Positions 50,272 through 64,000 of a stretch of 64,000 bases of DNA are shown here, piece by piece. Numbering within the stretch: position 1 is the stretch's first letter; each line of letters opens with the position of its first letter. The translations under genes were made by a program, and so were the position numbers. A model generated the notes under the pieces. The model did no database searches. It was not told where the DNA came from and saw only the letters and a list, made by a program, of their open reading frames with translations. Source of the DNA: Luteolibacter sp. LG18 (lineage in GTDB: Bacteria > Verrucomicrobiota > Verrucomicrobiia > Verrucomicrobiales > Akkermansiaceae); assembly GCF_036322585.1 (NCBI RefSeq), contig NZ_AP024600.1, forward strand, positions 372,001 to 436,000, written 5' to 3'.

Positions 50272-51873
50272 ATGTTCCGACCCATCGCCGTTCTCACCCT
50301 CTCCAGCCTGCTGCTCGCATCCTGCCAGCGGGAAACCCAGGTCGAGCGCGCGAATCGCGAAAAAATTCTCCTGGTTGGCAACGGCGACGACCCCAAGGCC
50401 CTCGACCCGCACCTGGTGACCGGGGTGATCGAGCACAACGTGATCCGCGCGGTGCTGGAAGGCCTCGTCGCGGACGATCCGGAGAAGGACACCGGCTATC
50501 CGCCGGGAGCCGCCACCTCATGGGAACACAACGCGGACTTCACCGAGTGGACCTTCCATCTGCGGCCGGGTGCGACGTGGTCCGATGGAGCCCCGCTCAC
50601 GGCACACGATTTCGAATTTTCCTACCACCGGAACCTCCACCCGGACCTCGCCGCGCCCTACGCGGAGATGCTGTATTTCATCAAGAACGCCGAGGCCTTC
50701 AACAAGGGCGAGATCAAGGACTTCAAGGAAGTCGGCGTGGCGGTCCCGGACGACTATACGCTCAAGCTGACGTTGCGCGAGCCGGTGTCCTATCTGCCGG
50801 GCGTGACCCGCCATTACAGTTGGTTCCCGGTGCCGAAGCACGTGGTGCTCCAGTTCGGCAAGATGACGGACCGTTTCACGAAGTGGACCGAGCCGGGCAA
50901 CATGGTGTCGAACGGTCCCTTCGTGCTGAAGGAGTGGAAGCTCAACAACCGCCTCGAGGTGACCCGCAACCCACGCTACTGGGACGCGGCGAACGTGAAG
51001 CTCAACGGCATCCGTTTCATCCCGATCGAGAACTTCTATTCCGAAACCCGCGCCTATCTCGCGGGCCAGATCCACACCGGCTACCAAGTACCGCCGGATC
51101 TGGTGGACAAGTTGAAGGCCGAGCGCCCGGCGGAGTTGCACCAGGAGCCCTACGTCGGCAGCCAGTTCGTCCGCCTGAACACCACCAAGCCCGGCCTGGA
51201 CAACCCGAAGGTGCGCATGGCCCTTTCCCTAGCCCTGGACCGGAAGGCGCTCTGCGACGCGATCCTCAAGGGCTACCAGCCCGCCGACTCGCTCACCCCG
51301 CAGATGGGCGACTACAAGCCCGATCCCGTGGTGGGCTTCGACCCCGAACGCGCCCGCAAGCTGCTGGCGGAGGCCGGCTTCCCGGAAGGCCGCGGCTTCC
51401 CGCGCTACTCGCTGCTGATCCGCAGTTCCGGCGCGCGCACCACCGCTGAAGCGCTGCAGGCGATGTGGAAACAGCACCTCGGCGTCCTCATCGACATCCA
51501 AGCGAAGGATTTCGGCTCCTACATCAGCGCCCAGCAATCGCTCAACTTCGACATGGCCGCCGCCGGATGGGTGGGTGATTACCTCGACCCGAGCACCTTC
51601 CTGTTGATGTGGACGGAGGGCAACGGCAACAACAACACCGGCTGGTCCAGCAAGACCTTCGAGGGCCTGCTCAACGACGCCGCCCACCAGGCCGATCCGG
51701 CCCAGCGCCTCGACAAATTCAAGCAGGCCGAACTGCTGCTCATGAATGAGCAGCCGATCATCCCCTTCGCCTGGCAGGCGCGGAACTATCTCCAGCGCCC
51801 CGAGGTGGGCGGCTGGCACCCGCTGCTGCTGGACAACCACCCGTGGAAGGCCGTTTCCATCGACACCCCCTGA
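50272..51873 (+). CDS. Oligopeptide-binding lipoprotein (OppA-like)
   Basis: A 533-residue lipoprotein with signal MFRPIAVLTLSSLLLASC (lipobox LLASC). Family-5 motifs are GDDPKALDPHLVTG, PGAATSWEHN, WSDGAPLTAHDFEFSYHRNL, VRMALSLALDRKALCDAIL and FDMAAAGWVGDYLDPSTFL. It resembles OppA/MppA of proteobacteria. It begins a plus-strand set with two permeases and no ATPase gene, which suggests use of the ATPases encoded on the other side. Confidence 0.94.
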   Translation: MFRPIAVLTLSSLLLASCQRETQVERANREKILLVGNGDDPKALDPHLVTGVIEHNVIRAVLEGLVADDPEKDTGYPPGAATSWEHNADFTEWTFHLRPGATWSDGAPLTAHDFEFSYHRNLHPDLAAPYAEMLYFIKNAEAFNKGEIKDFKEVGVAVPDDYTLKLTLREPVSYLPGVTRHYSWFPVPKHVVLQFGKMTDRFTKWTEPGNMVSNGPFVLKEWKLNNRLEVTRNPRYWDAANVKLNGIRFIPIENFYSETRAYLAGQIHTGYQVPPDLVDKLKAERPAELHQEPYVGSQFVRLNTTKPGLDNPKVRMALSLALDRKALCDAILKGYQPADSLTPQMGDYKPDPVVGFDPERARKLLAEAGFPEGRGFPRYSLLIRSSGARTTAEALQAMWKQHLGVLIDIQAKDFGSYISAQQSLNFDMAAAGWVGDYLDPSTFLLMWTEGNGNNNTGWSSKTFEGLLNDAAHQADPAQRLDKFKQAELLLMNEQPIIPFAWQARNYLQRPEVGGWHPLLLDNHPWKAVSIDTP

Positions 51874-51884
51874 TTTCGACGCCG

Positions 51885-52811
51885 ATGTTCAAGAATCTTC
51901 TCAACCGGTTCCTGCAGGCCGTCCTGGTCCTATTCGTCCTGTTCACGGCCACGTTCTTCCTCGTGAAGGCGCTGCCGGGCGGACCGTTCCAATCGGAGAA
52001 AGCCATCCCCCAGCACATCCGCGCGCGCATGGAGGAGCAATATGGCCTGAAAAAAAGCCTGCCGGAGCAGTACGTGATCATGTTGAAGAACTTCATCACG
52101 GGCAACCCTGGCGTCTCGACCCGTCTGGAAGGCCGTGAGGTCACCGAGGTGGTGGCGCAAGCATTCCCCGTTTCACTTCAACTCGGCCTCGTCGCCATGT
52201 TCGTCGCCGTGACCATTGGCATCCCCGCCGGGTGTCTCGCCGCGGCGAAGAAGAACAGCCTGATCGACACCGGCTCGATGACCGTGGCCATGATCGGCAT
52301 CTGCCTGCCCTCCTTCGTGACCGGCCCGCTCCTCGCGGAGTATTTTGGCCGCAACCTCCATTGGTTCCCCGCCATGGGATGGAGCACCGTCAACCCGTCC
52401 ACCTGGATCCTACCCGCCATCACGCTGGGACTGGCCTATGCCGCGTATATCTCGCGTCTCACCCGTGCCGGGATGCTGGACACACTCTCGCAGGACTTCG
52501 TCCGCACGGCGCGGGCCAAGGGCGTGCCGGGACTCCAGATTGTCTTTCGTCACTGCCTGAGGGGCGGACTGATCCCGGCCGTGGCCTACCTCGGTCCGGC
52601 CTTCGCGGGCATCATTTCCGGATCCGTGGTGATCGAAACCGTGTTCCAGATCCCCGGCCTCGGCCGCCATTTCATCAAGGCCATCGAATCGCGCGACGCC
52701 GGGATGATCATGGCTCCGGTGCTGCTGTTCGGCTCACTCGTGATCGCGGCGAACTTCGTCACCGATCTCCTCACCCTGTGGCTGAATCCACGCCTGCGGA
52801 AGTCGTCCTGA
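51885..52811 (+). CDS. Oligopeptide ABC transporter permease (OppB-like)
   Basis: A 308-residue permease with the OppB N-terminus (NLLNRFLQAVLVLFVLFTATFFLVKALPGGPF in part) and coupling loop RTARAKGVPGLQIVFRHCLRGGLIP. Its size matches E. coli OppB (306). The start at 51885 lies 11 bp after the binding-protein stop. Confidence 0.95.
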   Translation: MFKNLLNRFLQAVLVLFVLFTATFFLVKALPGGPFQSEKAIPQHIRARMEEQYGLKKSLPEQYVIMLKNFITGNPGVSTRLEGREVTEVVAQAFPVSLQLGLVAMFVAVTIGIPAGCLAAAKKNSLIDTGSMTVAMIGICLPSFVTGPLLAEYFGRNLHWFPAMGWSTVNPSTWILPAITLGLAYAAYISRLTRAGMLDTLSQDFVRTARAKGVPGLQIVFRHCLRGGLIPAVAYLGPAFAGIISGSVVIETVFQIPGLGRHFIKAIESRDAGMIMAPVLLFGSLVIAANFVTDLLTLWLNPRLRKSS

Positions 52812-52845
52812 TCTTCCCACACCCGAAGCACACCTTTCCCTCTCC

Positions 52846-53826
52846 ATGTCCACCGCCGCTTCCACCGCCTCCAAAGGCACCTCGCTCTGGCGCGATGCCT
52901 GGCTGCGCCTCAGCCACAACCGCGCCGCGGTCGCCGGGCTGTTCGTGCTGGTCATCATCGGCCTGACCTGCCTGATCCTGCCCTTCATCCCAGGCTTTCT
53001 CCAGGATCCCAACGCGCAAAACCTCGCGAACAAGAATCTCCCACCGATGGGCGGCCATTGGTTCGGCACCGATCAACTCGGCCGCGATATCTTCGCACGC
53101 GCCATTTTCGGAGGACGCATCTCCATCTTGGTCGGCCTCATCACCACCTTCGTTTCCGTCTCCATCGGCATCGTGTGGGGTGCCACCGCGGGCTACACGG
53201 GTGGCAAGGTCGACGCCGTCCTCATGCGCATCGTGGACGTCCTGTTCGCGCTGCCGTTCCTGGTGATCGTGATCCTGCTTTCCGTGGTGCTGACCCCAAT
53301 GACCGGCAAGCTCTCCGAAAGCATCGTCAGCCTCATCGCCGGTAGCCACGCCACGATGACGGAGATCGATCACGTCCGCACCTGGGTGGAGCCGATCGCT
53401 TCGCTGGTGCCGCTGTTCATCGCCATCGGCGCGCTGTCCTGGCTGACCGTCTCCCGCATCGTCCGGGCGCAGGTCCAGAGCGTGGCGAAGCTGGACTTCG
53501 TGGAAGCCTGCCGCTCTCTGGGCCTCGGCCACCTGCGGATCCTCTTCCGCCACATCCTGCCGAACACGCTCGGCCCGATCATCGTCTACACCACGCTGAC
53601 CATCCCGGGCATCATGCTGTTCGAGGCCACGCTCTCGTTCCTCGGACTCGGCGTGAAGGCGCCGAACAGCTCGTGGGGCGTGTTGATTCAGGAAGGTGCG
53701 AACGTGATGTTCTCCAATCCCTGGCCACTGTTCTTCCCGTCCGTGCTATTCTCGCTGACGCTGTTCTCGCTGAACTTCCTCGGCGACGGCCTGCGCGACG
53801 CCCTCGACCCGAAGTCGGCGAAGTAA
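52846..53826 (+). CDS. Oligopeptide ABC transporter permease (OppC-like)
   Basis: A 326-residue permease with GTDQLGRDIFARAIFGGRISI, the coupling loop EACRSLGLGHLRILFRHILPN, and FLGLGVKAPNSSWG, all typical of OppC. It ends the Opp-like set. A hairpin follows six bases after the stop, so no ATPase gene is cotranscribed downstream. Confidence 0.95.
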   Translation: MSTAASTASKGTSLWRDAWLRLSHNRAAVAGLFVLVIIGLTCLILPFIPGFLQDPNAQNLANKNLPPMGGHWFGTDQLGRDIFARAIFGGRISILVGLITTFVSVSIGIVWGATAGYTGGKVDAVLMRIVDVLFALPFLVIVILLSVVLTPMTGKLSESIVSLIAGSHATMTEIDHVRTWVEPIASLVPLFIAIGALSWLTVSRIVRAQVQSVAKLDFVEACRSLGLGHLRILFRHILPNTLGPIIVYTTLTIPGIMLFEATLSFLGLGVKAPNSSWGVLIQEGANVMFSNPWPLFFPSVLFSLTLFSLNFLGDGLRDALDPKSAK

Positions 53827-57470: not shown

Positions 57471-58721
57471 TCAGGCGAAGCGGTCCGGCGAAAGCAGCGC
57501 CAGGTCATGCTCCGGCCGCTCCCGGTCCACCAGCACGGCGGCCAAGCGGCCGGACTCCGGACCGAGGCTCAGGCCCATCATCGAGTGGCCGGTGGCGACG
57601 GTCAGGTTGGACGCCGCCTGGGTCCGGCCGAGATAGGGCATGCCGTCCGGCGAGCACGGGCGGAACCCCTGCCACGGCTGGATGCCGTCGAAATCGGACG
57701 GCTTGAACTTCGGGAAGTAGGCCGGCAGGGCCTTGAGAATCCCAGCCACACGGCGCGGCTCGATCTTCTCCTGCTTGCCGCTGATCTCCATGGTGCCGCC
57801 GACACGCAGCGAATCCCCCATCGGGGTGACGGCCACGCGGGCCTCGGTGAGCACCGAGCAGACCGTGGGAAGCTCGACCGGAGCCGGGTGGGTCAGGCTG
57901 TAACCCTTGCCCGCCTGCATCGGAATCTTCAGCCCGAGATCGCGGACGAGGTCGTCCGACCACGCACCGCCGCAGAGCACGAATTCATCGGCCTCCAGGT
58001 CACCGGCGGGCGTCTGGATGGCGACGAGTTTGCCACCCTCCTTCTTCCAGCCGGTCACCTCGGTGCTCCAGCGGAAGGTGCCGCCTGCCGCGAGAATGCG
58101 GCGCTCGAGGACGGCGATGAATTTCTCCGGGGACATGTGGCAATCCTTCGGAAACCACACCGAGCCGGCCACATCCATGGTGATCGTCGGATCGACCTTG
58201 GCGGTGCCCGCGGCATCGAGCACCTCGGCAGGCACGCCGAGCGCATTCGCCTTGGCGGCGACGGCGGCTTCCTCGTCGAGGCCGTGCTGGGTCTTGCACA
58301 GCATCAGTAGGCCCTTGGTCACGAGCCCGAAGTCCTCGCCCTCGGCGGCGTATTGGAGATACAACTCGCGGCTCGCGAGATTGAGATCGCGCAGCACCGG
58401 CGAGGCCGCCTCCACATGGGCGCGGGTCGCGGCCTGCATGAACTTGATGCCCCACGACACCAGATCGAGGTCGAGGCGCGGCTTGATGTAGAACGGCGAC
58501 TCGGGATTCCACATCCACTTGAACCCAAGCGCGACCATGCCCGGCGCGGCGAGCGGAATGAAATGGCTCGGCACGACCATGCCCGCGTTGCCGAACGAGC
58601 AGCCGCTGCGCTGCTGTGGCTGGCGGTCGACCACGGTGACGCGGTGGCCGCGCTTGAGACAGGCTTCCGCCGCGGAGAGGCCGATGACGCCTCCGCCGAT
58701 GATGATGACGTGCTTGGACAT
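57471..58721 (-). CDS. FAD-dependent D-amino-acid / D-hydroxyproline oxidase or dehydrogenase
   Basis: A 416-residue DadA-like flavoprotein. The dinucleotide-binding motif is IIGGGVIGLSAAEACLKRGHRVTVVD, and SGCSFGNAGMVVPSHFIPLAAPGM and QPWQGFRPCSPDGMPYLG are family blocks. In the hydroxyproline pathway such an enzyme oxidises cis-4-hydroxy-D-proline to 1-pyrroline-4-hydroxy-2-carboxylate. It lies 16 bp downstream of the epimerase gene on the same strand, so this role is well supported by context. The ATG at 58721 was chosen because it starts the FAD motif. Confidence 0.92.
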   Translation of the reverse strand: MSKHVIIIGGGVIGLSAAEACLKRGHRVTVVDRQPQQRSGCSFGNAGMVVPSHFIPLAAPGMVALGFKWMWNPESPFYIKPRLDLDLVSWGIKFMQAATRAHVEAASPVLRDLNLASRELYLQYAAEGEDFGLVTKGLLMLCKTQHGLDEEAAVAAKANALGVPAEVLDAAGTAKVDPTITMDVAGSVWFPKDCHMSPEKFIAVLERRILAAGGTFRWSTEVTGWKKEGGKLVAIQTPAGDLEADEFVLCGGAWSDDLVRDLGLKIPMQAGKGYSLTHPAPVELPTVCSVLTEARVAVTPMGDSLRVGGTMEISGKQEKIEPRRVAGILKALPAYFPKFKPSDFDGIQPWQGFRPCSPDGMPYLGRTQAASNLTVATGHSMMGLSLGPESGRLAAVLVDRERPEHDLALLSPDRFA

Positions 58722-58737
58722 GTAACGATGAAAGGGG

Positions 58738-59664
58738 TCAGACGATGCCCGAGCGGAACGGGTCCGCGGGATCGAAACAAAGGCGCGCATCCGCGGTGAT
58801 GTAAGCGGTGCCGCGGATGGTCGGGATGATCTCGCCGCTGGCGCGGTCCAGCCATTGGTATGATCCGGTGAACGAACTTCCGACCACGCTCTCCTGGATC
58901 CACTCCTCGCCCTCGGCGAGTTTTCCATCCGCCGCAAGGCAGGCGAGCTTCGCACTGGTGCCGGTGCCACACGGCGAGCGGTCGTAAGCCTTGCCCGGGC
59001 AGAGGACGAAATTGCGGGAGTGCCCGCCGTTTTGCCCGGGGCCGAACAATTCGATGTGATCGATCTCCGGGTGGCCTTGCGCGTTCGAGGCCACCCGGAT
59101 TTGCCATGTCAGCGCCGTGAGTTCTTCGGCGCGGGAAACCGTGAGTTCCTCCTGGAGCGAGGTGACGAGATAGAACCAATTGCCGCTCCACGCGAGATCA
59201 CCGCGGACCTCGCCGATGCCCGGCACTTGGAAGGCGAGATCCTTGATGGTGCGGCGACTGGGCACATTGGTGATCGCGACCGTGCCATCCTCGGCCAGCG
59301 TGGCGGTGACCACGCCCACCGGCGTGTCGATGCGGTGCGAACCCGGGCCGATCTTTCCGAGATAAGCCAGCGTCGCGACAAGGCCGATGGTGCCGTGGCC
59401 GCACATGCCGAGGTAACCGACATTGTTGAAAAAGATCACTCCCGCGGCGCAATCCGGCTCGTGGGGTTCGACAAGCATCGCCCCCACCAGCACGTCCGAT
59501 CCGCGCGGTTCCAAGGCGGTGGCGCGGCGGAATTCATCGTACTGCTCGCGGAAGCGCACGACGCGGTCGGCCAGCGGGCCGGTGCCCAGATCGGGACCGC
59601 CTTCGATGACGGTGCGGGTCGGCTCACCGCCGGTGTGGGAGTCGATGACTCGGACGAATTTCAT
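58738..59664 (-). CDS. 4-hydroxyproline 2-epimerase (proline racemase family)
   Basis: A 308-residue enzyme that epimerises trans-4-hydroxy-L-proline to cis-4-hydroxy-D-proline. The two catalytic cysteines are C88 in GMCGHGTIG and C232 in SPCGTGTSAK, matching active members (in dehydratase relatives the first is Thr). RVIDSHTGGEPTRTVI is the conserved N-terminus. Its neighbours (oxidase, deaminase, semialdehyde dehydrogenase) favour epimerase over proline racemase. Confidence 0.94.
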   Translation of the reverse strand: MKFVRVIDSHTGGEPTRTVIEGGPDLGTGPLADRVVRFREQYDEFRRATALEPRGSDVLVGAMLVEPHEPDCAAGVIFFNNVGYLGMCGHGTIGLVATLAYLGKIGPGSHRIDTPVGVVTATLAEDGTVAITNVPSRRTIKDLAFQVPGIGEVRGDLAWSGNWFYLVTSLQEELTVSRAEELTALTWQIRVASNAQGHPEIDHIELFGPGQNGGHSRNFVLCPGKAYDRSPCGTGTSAKLACLAADGKLAEGEEWIQESVVGSSFTGSYQWLDRASGEIIPTIRGTAYITADARLCFDPADPFRSGIV

Positions 59665-59677
59665 GAACAGGGAAATC

Positions 59678-60544
59678 TCATTTCTTGGGCTGCTCCTTCG
59701 GCTCCGCTGCTTTCGCGGGCCAATGGAACTCCCGGACGTGTCCTTCCGGCACGCCTTTCAAATGGGCGCGGTCCTCGGGAGCGCGCTTGGACGGTCGCAG
59801 GTAACGCCATGGCTTGTCGCCATAGACCTCGGCGCAGAGCGCGGCCACCTTCGGATCGAATTCCTTCAGCTCGACGCGCGTGTTGACGTGGTTGTGCTCG
59901 TTGTCGTTCTCGCGGTTGTCGTCGAACCAGCTCTGGGTCGCCTCGGCCCAATACTCGTGGTAATTGCTACCGGCGTATTTGCCCTTCCACAGCCCGGCGG
60001 CGACGGCGGAGTCGTAGGCCGCCTTGAGCCGTTTGTCGAAGGTCGGATCCACCGACTTCAGGCCGGTGTCGTGGATCGCATGGGCGAACTCATGGATCAT
60101 GATGTTCTCGGTCGAATACGGATCGCCCTTGAACTCGAGCAGATTCTCCTCCGCGCAGCTCACGCAGGGATTTTCAATGGAAGCCCCCAGACCGCGGGCG
60201 CGGCGATCCCAGTATTCCTTCGGCTTGAGGTCCGCGTGCTCCGGCACATCGGTGGTGAACTCGGTGGCGGCCATCACCGTGAGATGGACCTTTGCCTTCG
60301 TCATCGCCTGGAGGATGTCCTTCCTGCCATCGAGCACGTGGCGGATGATCCAGGCGGCCTCGCGCAGCGCGTCGTCCGCCACCTTCGGCGAACTCACGAT
60401 GGGGAAGCCATCCACCAGGATCTGGCGCTGGTAAAACGGCGCGAGTCCCAGACGCTCCCGCATGGCCGGATCGACCGCGGTCACATCCTCCGGAACGGCG
60501 AAAGCAAACGTGGCGGTGGCCAGCAGGAACGTCGGGATTCTCAT
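59678..60544 (-). CDS. Secreted HExxH putative metallopeptidase within the hydroxyproline operon
   Basis: A 288-residue protein with a signal peptide (about residues 1-16). The zinc motif HEFAH (151-155) is followed by an EYWAEATQSWFDDNREN block whose E201 is a likely third ligand, the layout of a gluzincin-type enzyme. C127 and C130 form a C-V-S-C pair. I recall similar uncharacterised proteins from Planctomycetota and Verrucomicrobiota, but no named family. It sits between the deaminase and epimerase genes with gaps of 14 and 13 bp, so it is cotranscribed. Cleaving a hydroxyproline-rich substrate outside the cell is a reasonable guess. Confidence 0.8.
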   Translation of the reverse strand: MRIPTFLLATATFAFAVPEDVTAVDPAMRERLGLAPFYQRQILVDGFPIVSSPKVADDALREAAWIIRHVLDGRKDILQAMTKAKVHLTVMAATEFTTDVPEHADLKPKEYWDRRARGLGASIENPCVSCAEENLLEFKGDPYSTENIMIHEFAHAIHDTGLKSVDPTFDKRLKAAYDSAVAAGLWKGKYAGSNYHEYWAEATQSWFDDNRENDNEHNHVNTRVELKEFDPKVAALCAEVYGDKPWRYLRPSKRAPEDRAHLKGVPEGHVREFHWPAKAAEPKEQPKK

Positions 60545-60558
60545 CGCAATAAAAAGGG

Positions 60559-61506
60559 TTACTTTCGCTTCGGGACCTTCGGCGCGTTGGCGATGCCGTC
60601 GTGGATCACCTTCAGCACGGCCTTGCGCTCGGCCCCCTTGAGGATGGTGCGTGGGGCGCGGACCCACTCGGTGCCGAGACCGCACTCCTGGACGCACAGC
60701 TTGATGTACTGCACGAACTTCACGTGCACATCGAGGTGCAGCAGCGGGGTGAACCAGCGGTAGATCTCGACCGCCTTCTGCCACTCGCCCGCCTGCATGA
60801 GTTCCCAGAGATACTGGTTCTGTTCCGGGAAGGCGATGCCGGTGCCGGCCACCCAGCCATCGATGCCGAGCACGGCGCTTTCCAGCGCGAGGTCGTCGAC
60901 GCCGGTGAAGATCGCGTAGCGGCCACCGATGGTGTTGTGGAGGTCGGTGATGCGGCGGGTGTTGCCCGAGCTCTCCTTGAGGGCGACGAAGTTCTTCACG
61001 TCCGCCAGCTTCGCGAACATCTCCGGCGTGATGTCGTTCCCGTAGCTGATCGGGTTGTTGTAGATCATGATCGGCAGACCGGTGGACTTCGCGACGGTAC
61101 GGAAGTGCAGCAGGGTCTCGTCCGGATCCGGCGTCTTGTAGTTCATCGCCGGCATCAGCATGAAGCCATCGGTGCCAGCCTTCTCGCAATCCTTGGCGAA
61201 ACGGACGGCTTCGGCGGTGGAGGTTTCGGCGACACCGGCGACCACCGGGATGCGGCCGTTCACCGCCTTCACCATCTCCGCCATCACGAGGCGCTTTTCA
61301 TCCGCGGTCATGGCCTGGTTCTCACCGAGGGACCCGAGGAACACGAGGCCGCTGATGCCGGACTTGATCAGGACTTCAGCGTGGCGGGCGGTTCCCTCGA
61401 TATCGAGCGAACCATCCTTGTGCATCTGGGTGGTGATGGCCGGGAAGACCCCTGTCCAGGGGCCGGGAGCTTTACGGGAACGGGCGGATGTTGCCATGCC
61501 AGCCAC
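60559..61506 (-). CDS. DapA-family deaminase (probable 1-pyrroline-4-hydroxy-2-carboxylate deaminase)
   Basis: A 315-residue TIM-barrel Schiff-base enzyme with FLGSLGENQAMTADE, Tyr in IMIYNNP and the Schiff-base Lys K177 in FVALKESSGN. In this cluster it most likely deaminates 1-pyrroline-4-hydroxy-2-carboxylate to 2,5-dioxopentanoate. The start may be 61506 or 61497. A dihydrodipicolinate synthase role is less likely, as lysine genes are absent. It is the first gene of the minus-strand operon. Confidence 0.88.
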   Translation of the reverse strand: MAGMATSARSRKAPGPWTGVFPAITTQMHKDGSLDIEGTARHAEVLIKSGISGLVFLGSLGENQAMTADEKRLVMAEMVKAVNGRIPVVAGVAETSTAEAVRFAKDCEKAGTDGFMLMPAMNYKTPDPDETLLHFRTVAKSTGLPIMIYNNPISYGNDITPEMFAKLADVKNFVALKESSGNTRRITDLHNTIGGRYAIFTGVDDLALESAVLGIDGWVAGTGIAFPEQNQYLWELMQAGEWQKAVEIYRWFTPLLHLDVHVKFVQYIKLCVQECGLGTEWVRAPRTILKGAERKAVLKVIHDGIANAPKVPKRK

Positions 61507-61603: not shown

Positions 61604-63199
61604 ATGTCATTTCACGGACACTCGCTCATCGCCGGCCGCCGCAGCGCGCAGGGCACGCCCCTTTTCCAAGCGGTCTCGCCGCTCGACAGCACCACGCTGG
61701 AAGGAAACTTCGCCACCGCCACCGAGGCCGAAGTCGACGAAGCGCTCGCCGCCGCGAAGGCCGCCTTCCCGGCCTTCCGCGATACCGATGGCGAAACCCG
61801 CGCCCTGTTTCTCGAAGCAATCGCCGATGGGATCATGGAACTCGGTGCCACGCTGATCGACCGCGCCGGTCTCGAAAGCGGCCTGCCGGTCCCGCGCCTC
61901 GAAGGCGAGCGCGGCCGCACCGTGAACCAGCTCCGGATGTTCGCGAAGATCGCCCGCGAGAACTCGTGGTATGACGCCCGCATCGAAACCGCCCTGCCGG
62001 ACCGCCAGCCGATTCCGAAGCCGGACCTGCGCCGCGCGATGCAGCCGATCGGCCCGGTGGTGGTCTTCGGCGCGAGCAATTTCCCCCTCGCCTTCTCCGT
62101 GGCCGGTGGCGACACCGCCTCCGCGCTCGTCACCGGCAATCCAGTCGTCGTGAAAGCGCATGAAGCCCATCCCGGCACGTCCGAATTGGTCGGCGGCGTG
62201 ATTGCCGCGGCCGCGGAAAAGACCGGCCTGCCCGCGGGCGTGTTCTCACTGGTCCATGGCAATGGCCGCACCGTCGGCCCATGGCTGGCGAAACACCCGG
62301 CCACCAAGGCGATCGGCTTCACCGGTTCGCTCGCCGCGGGCCGCGCGCTCTTCGATGCCGCGGCCTCCCGCCCGGATCCGATCCCGGTGTTCGCGGAAAT
62401 GGGCAGCCTCAATCCGATCGTGCTGCTGCCAAGCACCGTGAAGAACCGCCCCGCGGAAACCGCCGCGCTGCTGGCCACCTCCGCCACCGCGGGTGCCGGA
62501 CAGTTCTGCACCAAGCCGGGCATCATCGTCGCCACCGAGGGCGACGGGCTCGACGCCTTCCGCACCGCGCTCTCCTCCGCCTTCGCCGCCGTGCCGCCGA
62601 CCACCATGCTCCACGCGGGCATCGCGGACACCTACGGCAAATCCAGTAGCAAACTCGCGGATCACCCGGCGCTGGCGATCATCGGCCAGGGCTCCGCCGA
62701 AGCCGATGCCACCGCGACCCAGGGACGCGCGCTGATGGTCGAGACCACGGCGGAGAAATTCCTCGCCCACCCGGAACTCGCGCACGAGGTCTTCGGTCCG
62801 TTCTCGACGCTGGTGGTGGCGAAGTCCGCGGACGAAGTGGGCAGCGTCCTCGACACCCTCGGCGGCCAGCTCACTGCCTCCGTGTTCGGTGATGACGCCG
62901 AACTCTCCGCCTCGGCGGCACTCGTTTCGAAGCTCTCGGAACTCGCCGGCCGCGTGATCATCAACGGTGTGCCGACCGGCGTGGAGGTGAACACCTCGAT
63001 GCAGCATGGCGGCCCGTGGCCGGCCTCGAGCGACGCGCGTTTCACCTCGGTGGGCACTGCGGCGCTCGAACGGTTCGTGCGCCCCGTTTCCTACCAAGGA
63101 GCGCCGCAGAGCCTGCTGCCTGCCGCGCTGCGCGACAGCAACCCGCTGCAGATCGACCGCCTCGTCAACGGCATCCACACCCGCGATTCCATCCAATGA
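61604..63199 (+). CDS. 2-oxoglutarate semialdehyde (2,5-dioxovalerate) dehydrogenase
   Basis: A 531-residue NADP-type aldehyde dehydrogenase. Catalytic Glu E265 is in AEMGSLNPIVLLP and Cys C302 in GAGQFCTKPG, in the longer class III form typical of 2-oxoglutarate-semialdehyde dehydrogenases of hydroxyproline and sugar-acid pathways. It finishes the route to 2-oxoglutarate. Its stop overlaps the peptidase start (ATGA), which ties that peptidase to the pathway. Confidence 0.94.
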   Translation: MSFHGHSLIAGRRSAQGTPLFQAVSPLDSTTLEGNFATATEAEVDEALAAAKAAFPAFRDTDGETRALFLEAIADGIMELGATLIDRAGLESGLPVPRLEGERGRTVNQLRMFAKIARENSWYDARIETALPDRQPIPKPDLRRAMQPIGPVVVFGASNFPLAFSVAGGDTASALVTGNPVVVKAHEAHPGTSELVGGVIAAAAEKTGLPAGVFSLVHGNGRTVGPWLAKHPATKAIGFTGSLAAGRALFDAAASRPDPIPVFAEMGSLNPIVLLPSTVKNRPAETAALLATSATAGAGQFCTKPGIIVATEGDGLDAFRTALSSAFAAVPPTTMLHAGIADTYGKSSSKLADHPALAIIGQGSAEADATATQGRALMVETTAEKFLAHPELAHEVFGPFSTLVVAKSADEVGSVLDTLGGQLTASVFGDDAELSASAALVSKLSELAGRVIINGVPTGVEVNTSMQHGGPWPASSDARFTSVGTAALERFVRPVSYQGAPQSLLPAALRDSNPLQIDRLVNGIHTRDSIQ

Positions 63200-64000
63200 A
63201 AGCCCCCGCCGCCCTCTTCCTGTTCTCCGCGTTGATCACCGGCCTGCACGCGCAGGGCACCAAGGCCGACTACGACCGCGCCAGGGAATTGGGCGGCAAG
63301 GCCCGATCGCTGGTCAACAACGGCACCCCGCAGGTCACCTGGACCGAAACCGGCACCGCGTTCGCCCGCACCCGTGACAAGGTGCTGGCGGTCGACCTCG
63401 CGACCGGCAAGACCCGCGAGGCCACCAAGCAGGAGATCGACCAGGCGAAGTCCGTTTCCAAGGACGCGCAGGTGATACCCTTCGGTCGTGCGCGCTCGCG
63501 TGACGGCGGCGAACCGCAGTCGCTTGAGATCCGCAACGAAACCCAGGACACGATCGGCATCAACTGGATCGACTCCCGCGGCGACAGCAAGCCCTACGGC
63601 ACCATCGATCCCGGCAAGAGCGCGACCCAATCGACCTACGCCGGACACGTCTGGAGCATCACCGACCGCGATGGCAAACCCTTCGCCATGGTCCGCACGC
63701 CGGAATACACCAGCGTGGCGCACATCACCGGCAAGCCGACCGAAGCCGCGCCATCGCGCAGACCGGAACGCCGCTCGACCAGCGGCCGGGTGTCCCCGGA
63801 CGGCAAGACCGAGACCTACGTCCAGCGCGGCACCGCGCTGGTGATCCGCCCGCTGCCGGATGGCACCGCCAGCACGGTCACCGAGTTGCCCGGAGGCGAG
63901 CGTTTCGACAACGACCCTCAGTGGTCGCCGGATTCCAGCCACTTCGTCATCTCCAGCGCGAAGGAGGTCACGGTGCGTCAGGTCACCCTGGTGCAATCCT
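63196..64000 (+). CDS. Secreted S9-type peptidase N-terminus with VHL beta-like domain (cut by window edge)
   Basis: The first 268 residues are visible; the catalytic domain lies beyond base 64000. A signal peptide (MKAPAALFLFSALITGLHAQ) precedes DYDRARELGGKARSLVNN and WTETGTAFARTRD, an opening I recall from S9 prolyl-oligopeptidase/DPP-IV-type N-termini. Residues about 110-170 resemble the von Hippel-Lindau beta domain. Spacing matches human pVHL exactly: W124 (W88), Y134 (Y98), T147 (S111), Y148 (Y112), H151 (H115) and W153 (W117). Propeller blades then resume (VSPDGKTE, DPQWSPDSSHFV). VHL-like inserts are, as far as I recall, known in some bacterial S9 peptidases. Here the gene is coupled to hydroxyproline degradation. 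Confidence 0.85.
   Translation, partial: MKAPAALFLFSALITGLHAQGTKADYDRARELGGKARSLVNNGTPQVTWTETGTAFARTRDKVLAVDLATGKTREATKQEIDQAKSVSKDAQVIPFGRARSRDGGEPQSLEIRNETQDTIGINWIDSRGDSKPYGTIDPGKSATQSTYAGHVWSITDRDGKPFAMVRTPEYTSVAHITGKPTEAAPSRRPERRSTSGRVSPDGKTETYVQRGTALVIRPLPDGTASTVTELPGGERFDNDPQWSPDSSHFVISSAKEVTVRQVTLVQS

Follow-up and report, generated by a model that had tools for sequence, protein, structure and literature searches.

A 64,000-nucleotide stretch of Luteolibacter sp. LG18 DNA (contig NZ_AP024600.1, positions 372,001 to 436,000; hereafter the window) ends within a gene for a secreted-type S9 peptidase that carries a VHL beta domain, with the pocket residues by which human pVHL holds hydroxyproline retained, next to a putative hydroxyproline-degradation cluster. 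Human pVHL is the textbook hydroxyproline reader and the target of many degrader drugs. We hold, with moderate confidence, that the protein (VHL-S9) is an extracellular hydroxyproline reader on a secreted-type S9 peptidase that feeds a hydroxyproline-peptide locus, and it is the binding of hydroxyproline that we infer here. The evidence comes from the domain and its pocket, from gene linkage across loci and from genome co-occurrence surveys.

A VHL beta domain and its pocket on an S9 peptidase

The VHL-S9 gene lies on the forward strand and has the first 268 of its 776 codons in the window (63196..64000), continuing to 65526 past its end; the host genome is one contig of 5.8 Mb, in which the window is C1:372001-436000. 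Followed in the whole-genome sequence (locus L002:8197-10527), the open reading frame starts with ATG at 63196 and encodes 776 residues. As the initial annotation had noted, its start codon overlaps the stop of the neighbouring aldehyde dehydrogenase gene (61604-63199); the overlap is 4 bases long. Pfam places VHL at residues 106-159, DPPIV_N at 242-489 and Peptidase_S9 at 576-766, and a start resembling a signal peptide was read by eye at residues 1-20 (63196..63255, forward strand). The S9 catalytic residues, which could be sought only past position 64000, are present as Ser643, Asp716 and His748 in the continued sequence and its alignment. With a DPPIV_N propeller and an S9 hydrolase bearing Ser-Asp-His, the protein belongs to the DPP4-like (S9B) class; its whole-length model (predicted local confidence, pLDDT, 81.4) has prolyl tripeptidyl aminopeptidase (PTP-A) as best PDB match, and a tree of the S9 part puts it nearest, among named relatives, to Verrucomicrobiota.

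Residues 102-185 (63499..63750, forward strand), with W124, Y134, T147, H151 and W153, are by prediction a real VHL beta domain, because the Pfam match exceeds its cut-off, a profile matches pVHL and the predicted fold agrees. The Pfam VHL model (PF01847) has a single match in the 5.8 Mb genome, at VHL-S9 (E 8.2e-6, 28.3 bits, curated cut-off 21; 24.4 bits when scored within the VHL-S9 protein), and no match in any of 14 control genomes (0/14). A profile of 19 relatives reaches pVHL chains in the PDB at E about 3e-12, with the first non-pVHL chain at 0.87, and aligns to human pVHL gaplessly through the pocket-bearing stretch. Modelled alone with AlphaFold2 (mean pLDDT 91.6), the domain superposes on pVHL with Z 12.3 and a root mean square deviation of 2.2 over 83 residues at 22% identity. 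The VHL-like segment that the initial annotation had recognised from residue spacing is therefore upheld by both the domain model and the predicted beta sandwich, and the single Pfam match, the PDB profile match and the fold match together rule out a chance motif. A full ligase adaptor of the pVHL type is likewise ruled out, since at E 0.001 the Pfam scan of the whole protein reports VHL, DPPIV_N, Peptidase_S9 and further hydrolase models and no VHL alpha domain (elongin C binding).

Passages of a review (PMC9528729) give the pVHL hydroxyproline site as Trp88, Tyr98, His110, Ser111, His115 and Trp117; the hydroxyl is hydrogen-bonded to Ser111 and His115, the carbonyl to Tyr98. The window protein has W124, Y134, T147 (Thr for Ser111), H151 and W153 at the corresponding places, and these positions, like Y148, had been placed correctly in the initial annotation. 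Across 98 VHL-S9 domains, the five positions Trp88, Tyr98, Ser/Thr111, His115 and Trp117 are complete in 95 (20 of 21 from genes linked to hydroxyproline pathway genes, 75 of 77 from the others). By position, Trp88 and His115 are retained in 98 and Trp117 in 97; at position 111, Thr occurs in 93 and Ser in the other 5. Tyr98 is found in 95, and in the three domains that lack the complete set it is replaced by Phe. If an all-gap column is set aside, conservation is highest in seven columns: those of the five pocket positions, Asn78 and Gly114. The Ser-Asp-His triad, counted by alignment, is found in 90/98, and the remaining 8 show gaps only at those sites; earlier regular-expression counts (all three triad patterns in 45/98, signal-like start in 76/98) were unreliable, and the triad was recounted for that reason.

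VHL-like domains on other architectures have a complete pocket in only 4 of 18 cases. These four are the stand-alone VHL proteins L062 and L066 and the M90-like peptidases L214 and L216, in which the VHL domain is C-terminal; removal of L211, a VHL plus DPPIV_N fragment, had changed this count from 5/19 to 4/18. As so few of these domains keep the set, Tyr98, Thr/Ser111 and His115 are, from the sequences compared, not demanded by the VHL fold, and they are retained on the S9 peptidases. The family profile was built from VHL-S9 members, so strongly diverged VHL domains may escape it.

Hydroxyproline genes in the window, across loci and across genomes

Upstream of VHL-S9, members of the proline racemase, DAAO, DHDPS and aldehyde dehydrogenase superfamilies lie side by side, the same four that make up the trans-4-hydroxy-L-proline route in the main text of PMC4113996. 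The aldehyde dehydrogenase family gene (61604..63199, forward strand; Pfam Aldedh) is by context a probable 2-oxoglutarate-semialdehyde dehydrogenase, and its best NCBIfam model, alpha-ketoglutaric semialdehyde dehydrogenase, scores 114 bits, far below the cut-off of 770. On the reverse strand follow a DHDPS-family gene (60559..61506; Pfam DHDPS), by context a probable pyrroline-4-hydroxy-2-carboxylate deaminase, a proline racemase family gene of the 4-hydroxyproline epimerase type (58738..59664; Pfam 310 bits) and a DAO-family FAD oxidoreductase gene (57471..58721; Pfam DAO), by context a probable D-hydroxyproline oxidase or dehydrogenase. For the racemase-family protein, the 4-hydroxyproline epimerase model NF052296 is by far the best (416.3 bits, cut-off 450; proline racemase model 191.6). 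The hydroxyproline cluster proposed in the initial annotation stands as regards the four families; the epimerase assignment is a probable one, its score lying under the curated cut-off, and the exact roles of the other three are assigned by context.

The cluster also contains, at 59678..60544 on the reverse strand, an M90-like metallopeptidase gene lacking a VHL domain, with a HEFAH motif, a secretion-type start and a start codon set by eye (23.1 bits, below the Pfam cut-off of 26.2). Closely downstream of VHL-S9 and on the same strand, outside the window, is a subtilase (S8) gene (L002:10586-12181, window numbering 65585-67180).

To compare gene neighbourhoods, genome contigs were scanned with patterns from the S9 part, and the best 80 of 585 loci comprised 70 with VHL and 10 without detectable VHL. 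The linkage set combined scan loci with further genomes and held 91 VHL-S9 genes, with flanks of up to about 10 kb a side and often less. At least one hydroxyproline pathway gene is nearby in 21 of the 91, the window's gene included. The epimerase gene itself is present in 16 of these 21 linked loci, L102, L121, L130 and L168 have only other pathway genes, and L069 is also among the linked loci. At L171, DHDPS, epimerase, VHL-S9 and FAD oxidase follow one another in this order on the same strand, overlapping by 4 bases; at L142 (Chthoniobacter flavus Ellin428), it is DHDPS, an M24 peptidase with an aminopeptidase P domain, epimerase, VHL-S9 and FAD oxidase, with overlaps that are partly 4-base. 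The linked locus L129 additionally carries an M90-like gene. Unlinked neighbourhoods were checked for pathway genes and M24, and an M24 gene occurs in 4/84 other loci; at E 1e-10, none of the 20 remaining linked loci encodes a homologue of the L142 ABC permease.

In the tree of the S9 part (quick method, SH-aLRT support only), the linked rows are scattered, with 12 label changes, at least 10 of them by well-supported branches. Two linked loci, L130 (labelled Armatimonadetes) and L168 (labelled Proteobacteria, probably in error), break an otherwise uniform Verrucomicrobiota labelling. The S9 genes of bins labelled Klebsiella pneumoniae (L113) and Proteobacteria (L168) group closely with Verrucomicrobiales L114, and these labels look wrong. 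Among scan genomes that have both genes, the epimerase gene lies within the flank in 13 of 48, where about 0.2 would be expected at random (~20 kb of 5 Mb each). An S9 gene of the VHL-S9 type is absent from all 13 epimerase loci inspected in genomes without VHL-S9, which represent 13 of the 33 such genomes.

We then considered whole genomes, scoring an epimerase-family gene as present at PF05544 matches above 180 bits in two phylum draws and above 200 bits in the scan genomes. Genomes with weaker matches (11 in the draw from the window's phylum, 22 in the Planctomycetota draw) were counted as lacking it, and outside the linked loci PF05544 counts epimerase, racemase and dehydratase types together. 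Family-level two-by-two counts and contig positions were read by eye from tables. Of 387 genomes drawn evenly from the window's phylum, 21 have a Pfam VHL match, each with a VHL-S9 gene, and a full-length epimerase-family gene is present in 7/21 of these versus 33/366 others (p 0.003; 6/20 and p 0.01 without the window's genome). Among the six co-occurring genomes other than the window's, the two genes are within about 4 kb in three (G243, G217, G339) and on different contigs in the other three. The family profile finds VHL-like domains in 30/387 genomes of this draw, and profile A3, with any VHL architecture, gives epimerase-family genes in 15/30 versus 25/357 (p 6e-9). With the same profile, likewise for any architecture, VHL is present in 31 of 199 Planctomycetota genomes, with epimerase-family genes in 11/31 versus 22/168 (p 0.006; 9/29 and p 0.02 without two genomes known beforehand). 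In the scan genomes, the gene occurs in 48/69 with VHL-S9 and in 4/10 with an S9 gene without VHL, a rate biased upward as the loci were chosen as those most like an alignment in which 4/18 members were linked.

Proposed role and alternative explanations

The combination of a VHL-like domain on a secreted peptidase with the position of its gene within hydroxyproline gene sets suggests that bacteria may use the VHL domain to find hydroxyproline-rich food proteins. The VHL pocket would grip hydroxyproline in a protein or peptide chain in roughly the way that pVHL grips hydroxylated HIF. The domain would thereby deliver to the active site substrates rich in hydroxyproline, such as collagen-like proteins or the hydroxyproline-rich glycoproteins of plants or algae. 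Released peptides would be taken up, for which a family 5 solute-binding protein and two peptide-type ABC permeases encoded in the window (50272..53826, forward strand) offer a possible route, and may be cut further, for example by the M24 Xaa-Pro-type peptidase of some operons. The neighbouring epimerase, FAD oxidase, deaminase and semialdehyde dehydrogenase would then convert hydroxyproline to 2-oxoglutarate, following the pathway in the main text of PMC4113996.

Several observations weigh against this role. As many as 70/91 VHL-S9 genes are not beside pathway genes, many of them on short stretches, and a full-length epimerase-family gene is missing from 14/21 of the VHL-S9 genomes drawn from the window's phylum, as it is from 20/31 VHL-bearing Planctomycetota genomes (any architecture). 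In Planctomycetota, the two genes are near each other in none of the 11 genomes having both (on different contigs in nine, far apart on one contig in two). The Fisher tests take genomes as independent, with kinship, genome size and completeness uncorrected. Pathway genes are near none of the ten S9 loci without VHL among the best 80 of 585, two or more of which end before the VHL region. The difference in linkage between loci with and without VHL (17/70 vs 0/10) falls short of significance (p 0.11), and we do not claim a dependence of linkage on the VHL domain. In L098, the linked locus most closely related to the window gene, Tyr98 is replaced by Phe. Finally, the active-site region departs in part from that of the nearest relative of solved structure: Lys676 takes the place of PTP-A Glu636, which was mutated in structure 2z3w (numbering transferred by hand through the S603A and E636A structure titles); conservation of Glu636 is therefore not claimed for VHL-S9, and the specificity of di- or tripeptidyl cleavage after proline may differ. 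The VHL domain thus occurs in many genomes without the hydroxyproline pathway, and co-occurrence with epimerase-family genes is enriched but partial. The refuting outcome named in the initial annotation, independent occurrence of VHL-S9 and hydroxyproline genes, is thus half borne out: most VHL-S9 genomes of the draw from the window's phylum do without the epimerase-family gene, yet association and linkage in that draw exceed chance.

The absence of hydroxyproline genes near most VHL-S9 genes would also fit a domain that binds proline-type extended peptides or their glycans with no need of the 4-hydroxyl, at a locus for proline-rich peptides generally, and so would the prevalence of Thr over Ser at position 111 (93/98) and the M24/AMP_N Xaa-Pro-type peptidase in some operons. 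We consider this unlikely, as the two sites at which pVHL bonds the hydroxyl, 111 (Thr/Ser) and 115 (His), are retained in 98/98 and the neighbours belong to the 4-hydroxyproline pathway. A purely structural role, in which the domain belongs to the propeller, keeps its aromatic residues for stability and binds nothing specific, appears rather improbable: Asn78 and Gly114, outside the named pocket, are also near-invariant, and the PMC3688787 abstract describes an aromatic tetrahedron in the pVHL core required for stability, but domains giving a matching fold signal on sulfatases, the AraC regulator and the MACPF protein do without Tyr98, Ser/Thr111 or His115, and some S9 relatives manage without a VHL domain at all. 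That the linkage reflects a gene order inherited by chance within a single group is very improbable and already disfavoured. The almost uniform Verrucomicrobiota labels of the linked loci would be in line with such an accident, whereas the repeated label changes across well-supported branches, gene orders that vary between loci and an epimerase gene in the flank far above the random expectation speak against it.

Other VHL-like proteins and known systems

VHL-like domains were also found on proteins other than S9 peptidases, and these fit a reader module for extracellular hydroxyproline-rich material, though, judging from their changed pockets, the ligands may differ. The stand-alone VHL proteins (L062:9816-10166, L066:7952-8302) have 117 residues, a signal-like start and a whole pocket, with Thr-His for Gly-His. 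M90-like peptidases carry the domain either N-terminally, with Tyr98 replaced by Asn (L200-L203), or C-terminally with the whole pocket (L214, L216; M90 matches below the Pfam cut-off). Sulfatases with a C-terminal VHL-like domain (L199, L204, L234, L237; L076:8876-10717) have His115 replaced, and a 1637-residue protein (L075:5291-10201) combines several VHL-like stretches with a MAC/perforin domain.

A VHL-like C-terminus is further found on AraC-type regulators (L085:4555-5760, L088:1223-2485, L090:14012-15259, L093:4978-6231; also L219, L226, L229, L231). The helix-turn-helix was detected in 3/3 scanned, and the C-terminus matches the VHL-S9 profile at 96.9% probability with pocket residues changed; searched against the PDB, the profile of this domain found no VHL chain, only 3odt at E 1.6. 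Such regulators occur in 16/145 genomes of the window's family, all of one genus, which is related to the window's and is without VHL-S9 in the genomes examined. All 16 genomes have an epimerase-family gene, within 10 kb of the regulator gene in 8, at 26 kb in one, at 200 kb in one and on other contigs in six. A wider scheme is possible, though we hold it only tentatively, in which the bacterial VHL fold is a feeding-related hydroxyproline module on S9 peptidases, M90-like peptidases and sulfatases that diverged on an AraC regulator controlling the operon, with animal pVHL, which senses oxygen by reading hydroxylated HIF, as a late re-use of what began as a reader for scavenging nutrients.

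A bacterial family that has the pocket as its most conserved part and is found in hydroxyproline operons makes the origin of the pVHL pocket testable by a binding assay. If the proposed role is true, VHL-S9 would point to a novel type of secreted enzyme acting on hydroxyproline-rich proteins, and the family would be a source of small soluble hydroxyproline-binding domains.

Pfam can already detect bacterial VHL domains, and one has been published, EMK97_00595 of Litorilituus sediminis, whose VHL beta domain is read as a possible tumour suppressor (PMC9002001). In the passages on that protein, the word peptidase is absent and hydroxyproline occurs once, for HIF. Among open-licence papers, with domain-architecture databases outside the search, we found none linking a bacterial VHL domain to hydroxyproline use. 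As far as the literature searches reach, the components are of known kinds and their combination with a retained pocket is new. The window's cluster resembles those of PMC4113996 in bringing together epimerase, DAAO-, DHDPS- and aldehyde-dehydrogenase-family genes and differs in the presence of the VHL-S9 gene; the main text of that paper is without the terms VHL, Verrucomicrob and Planctomycet. With the beta domain of human pVHL (1lm8, 1lqb, 4awj), VHL-S9 shares the fold, the gapless pocket alignment and five site positions (Ser111 as Thr), whereas its domain is fused to a secreted-type peptidase and the Pfam scan finds no alpha domain. The prolyl tripeptidyl aminopeptidase of P. gingivalis (2d5l) and bacterial DPP4 (S9B) have the propeller, the hydrolase and the triad in common with it and are its best match in sequence and fold; unlike these relatives, VHL-S9 has the VHL domain inside the N-terminal propeller part, where relatives without VHL show, by eye, ordinary strands.

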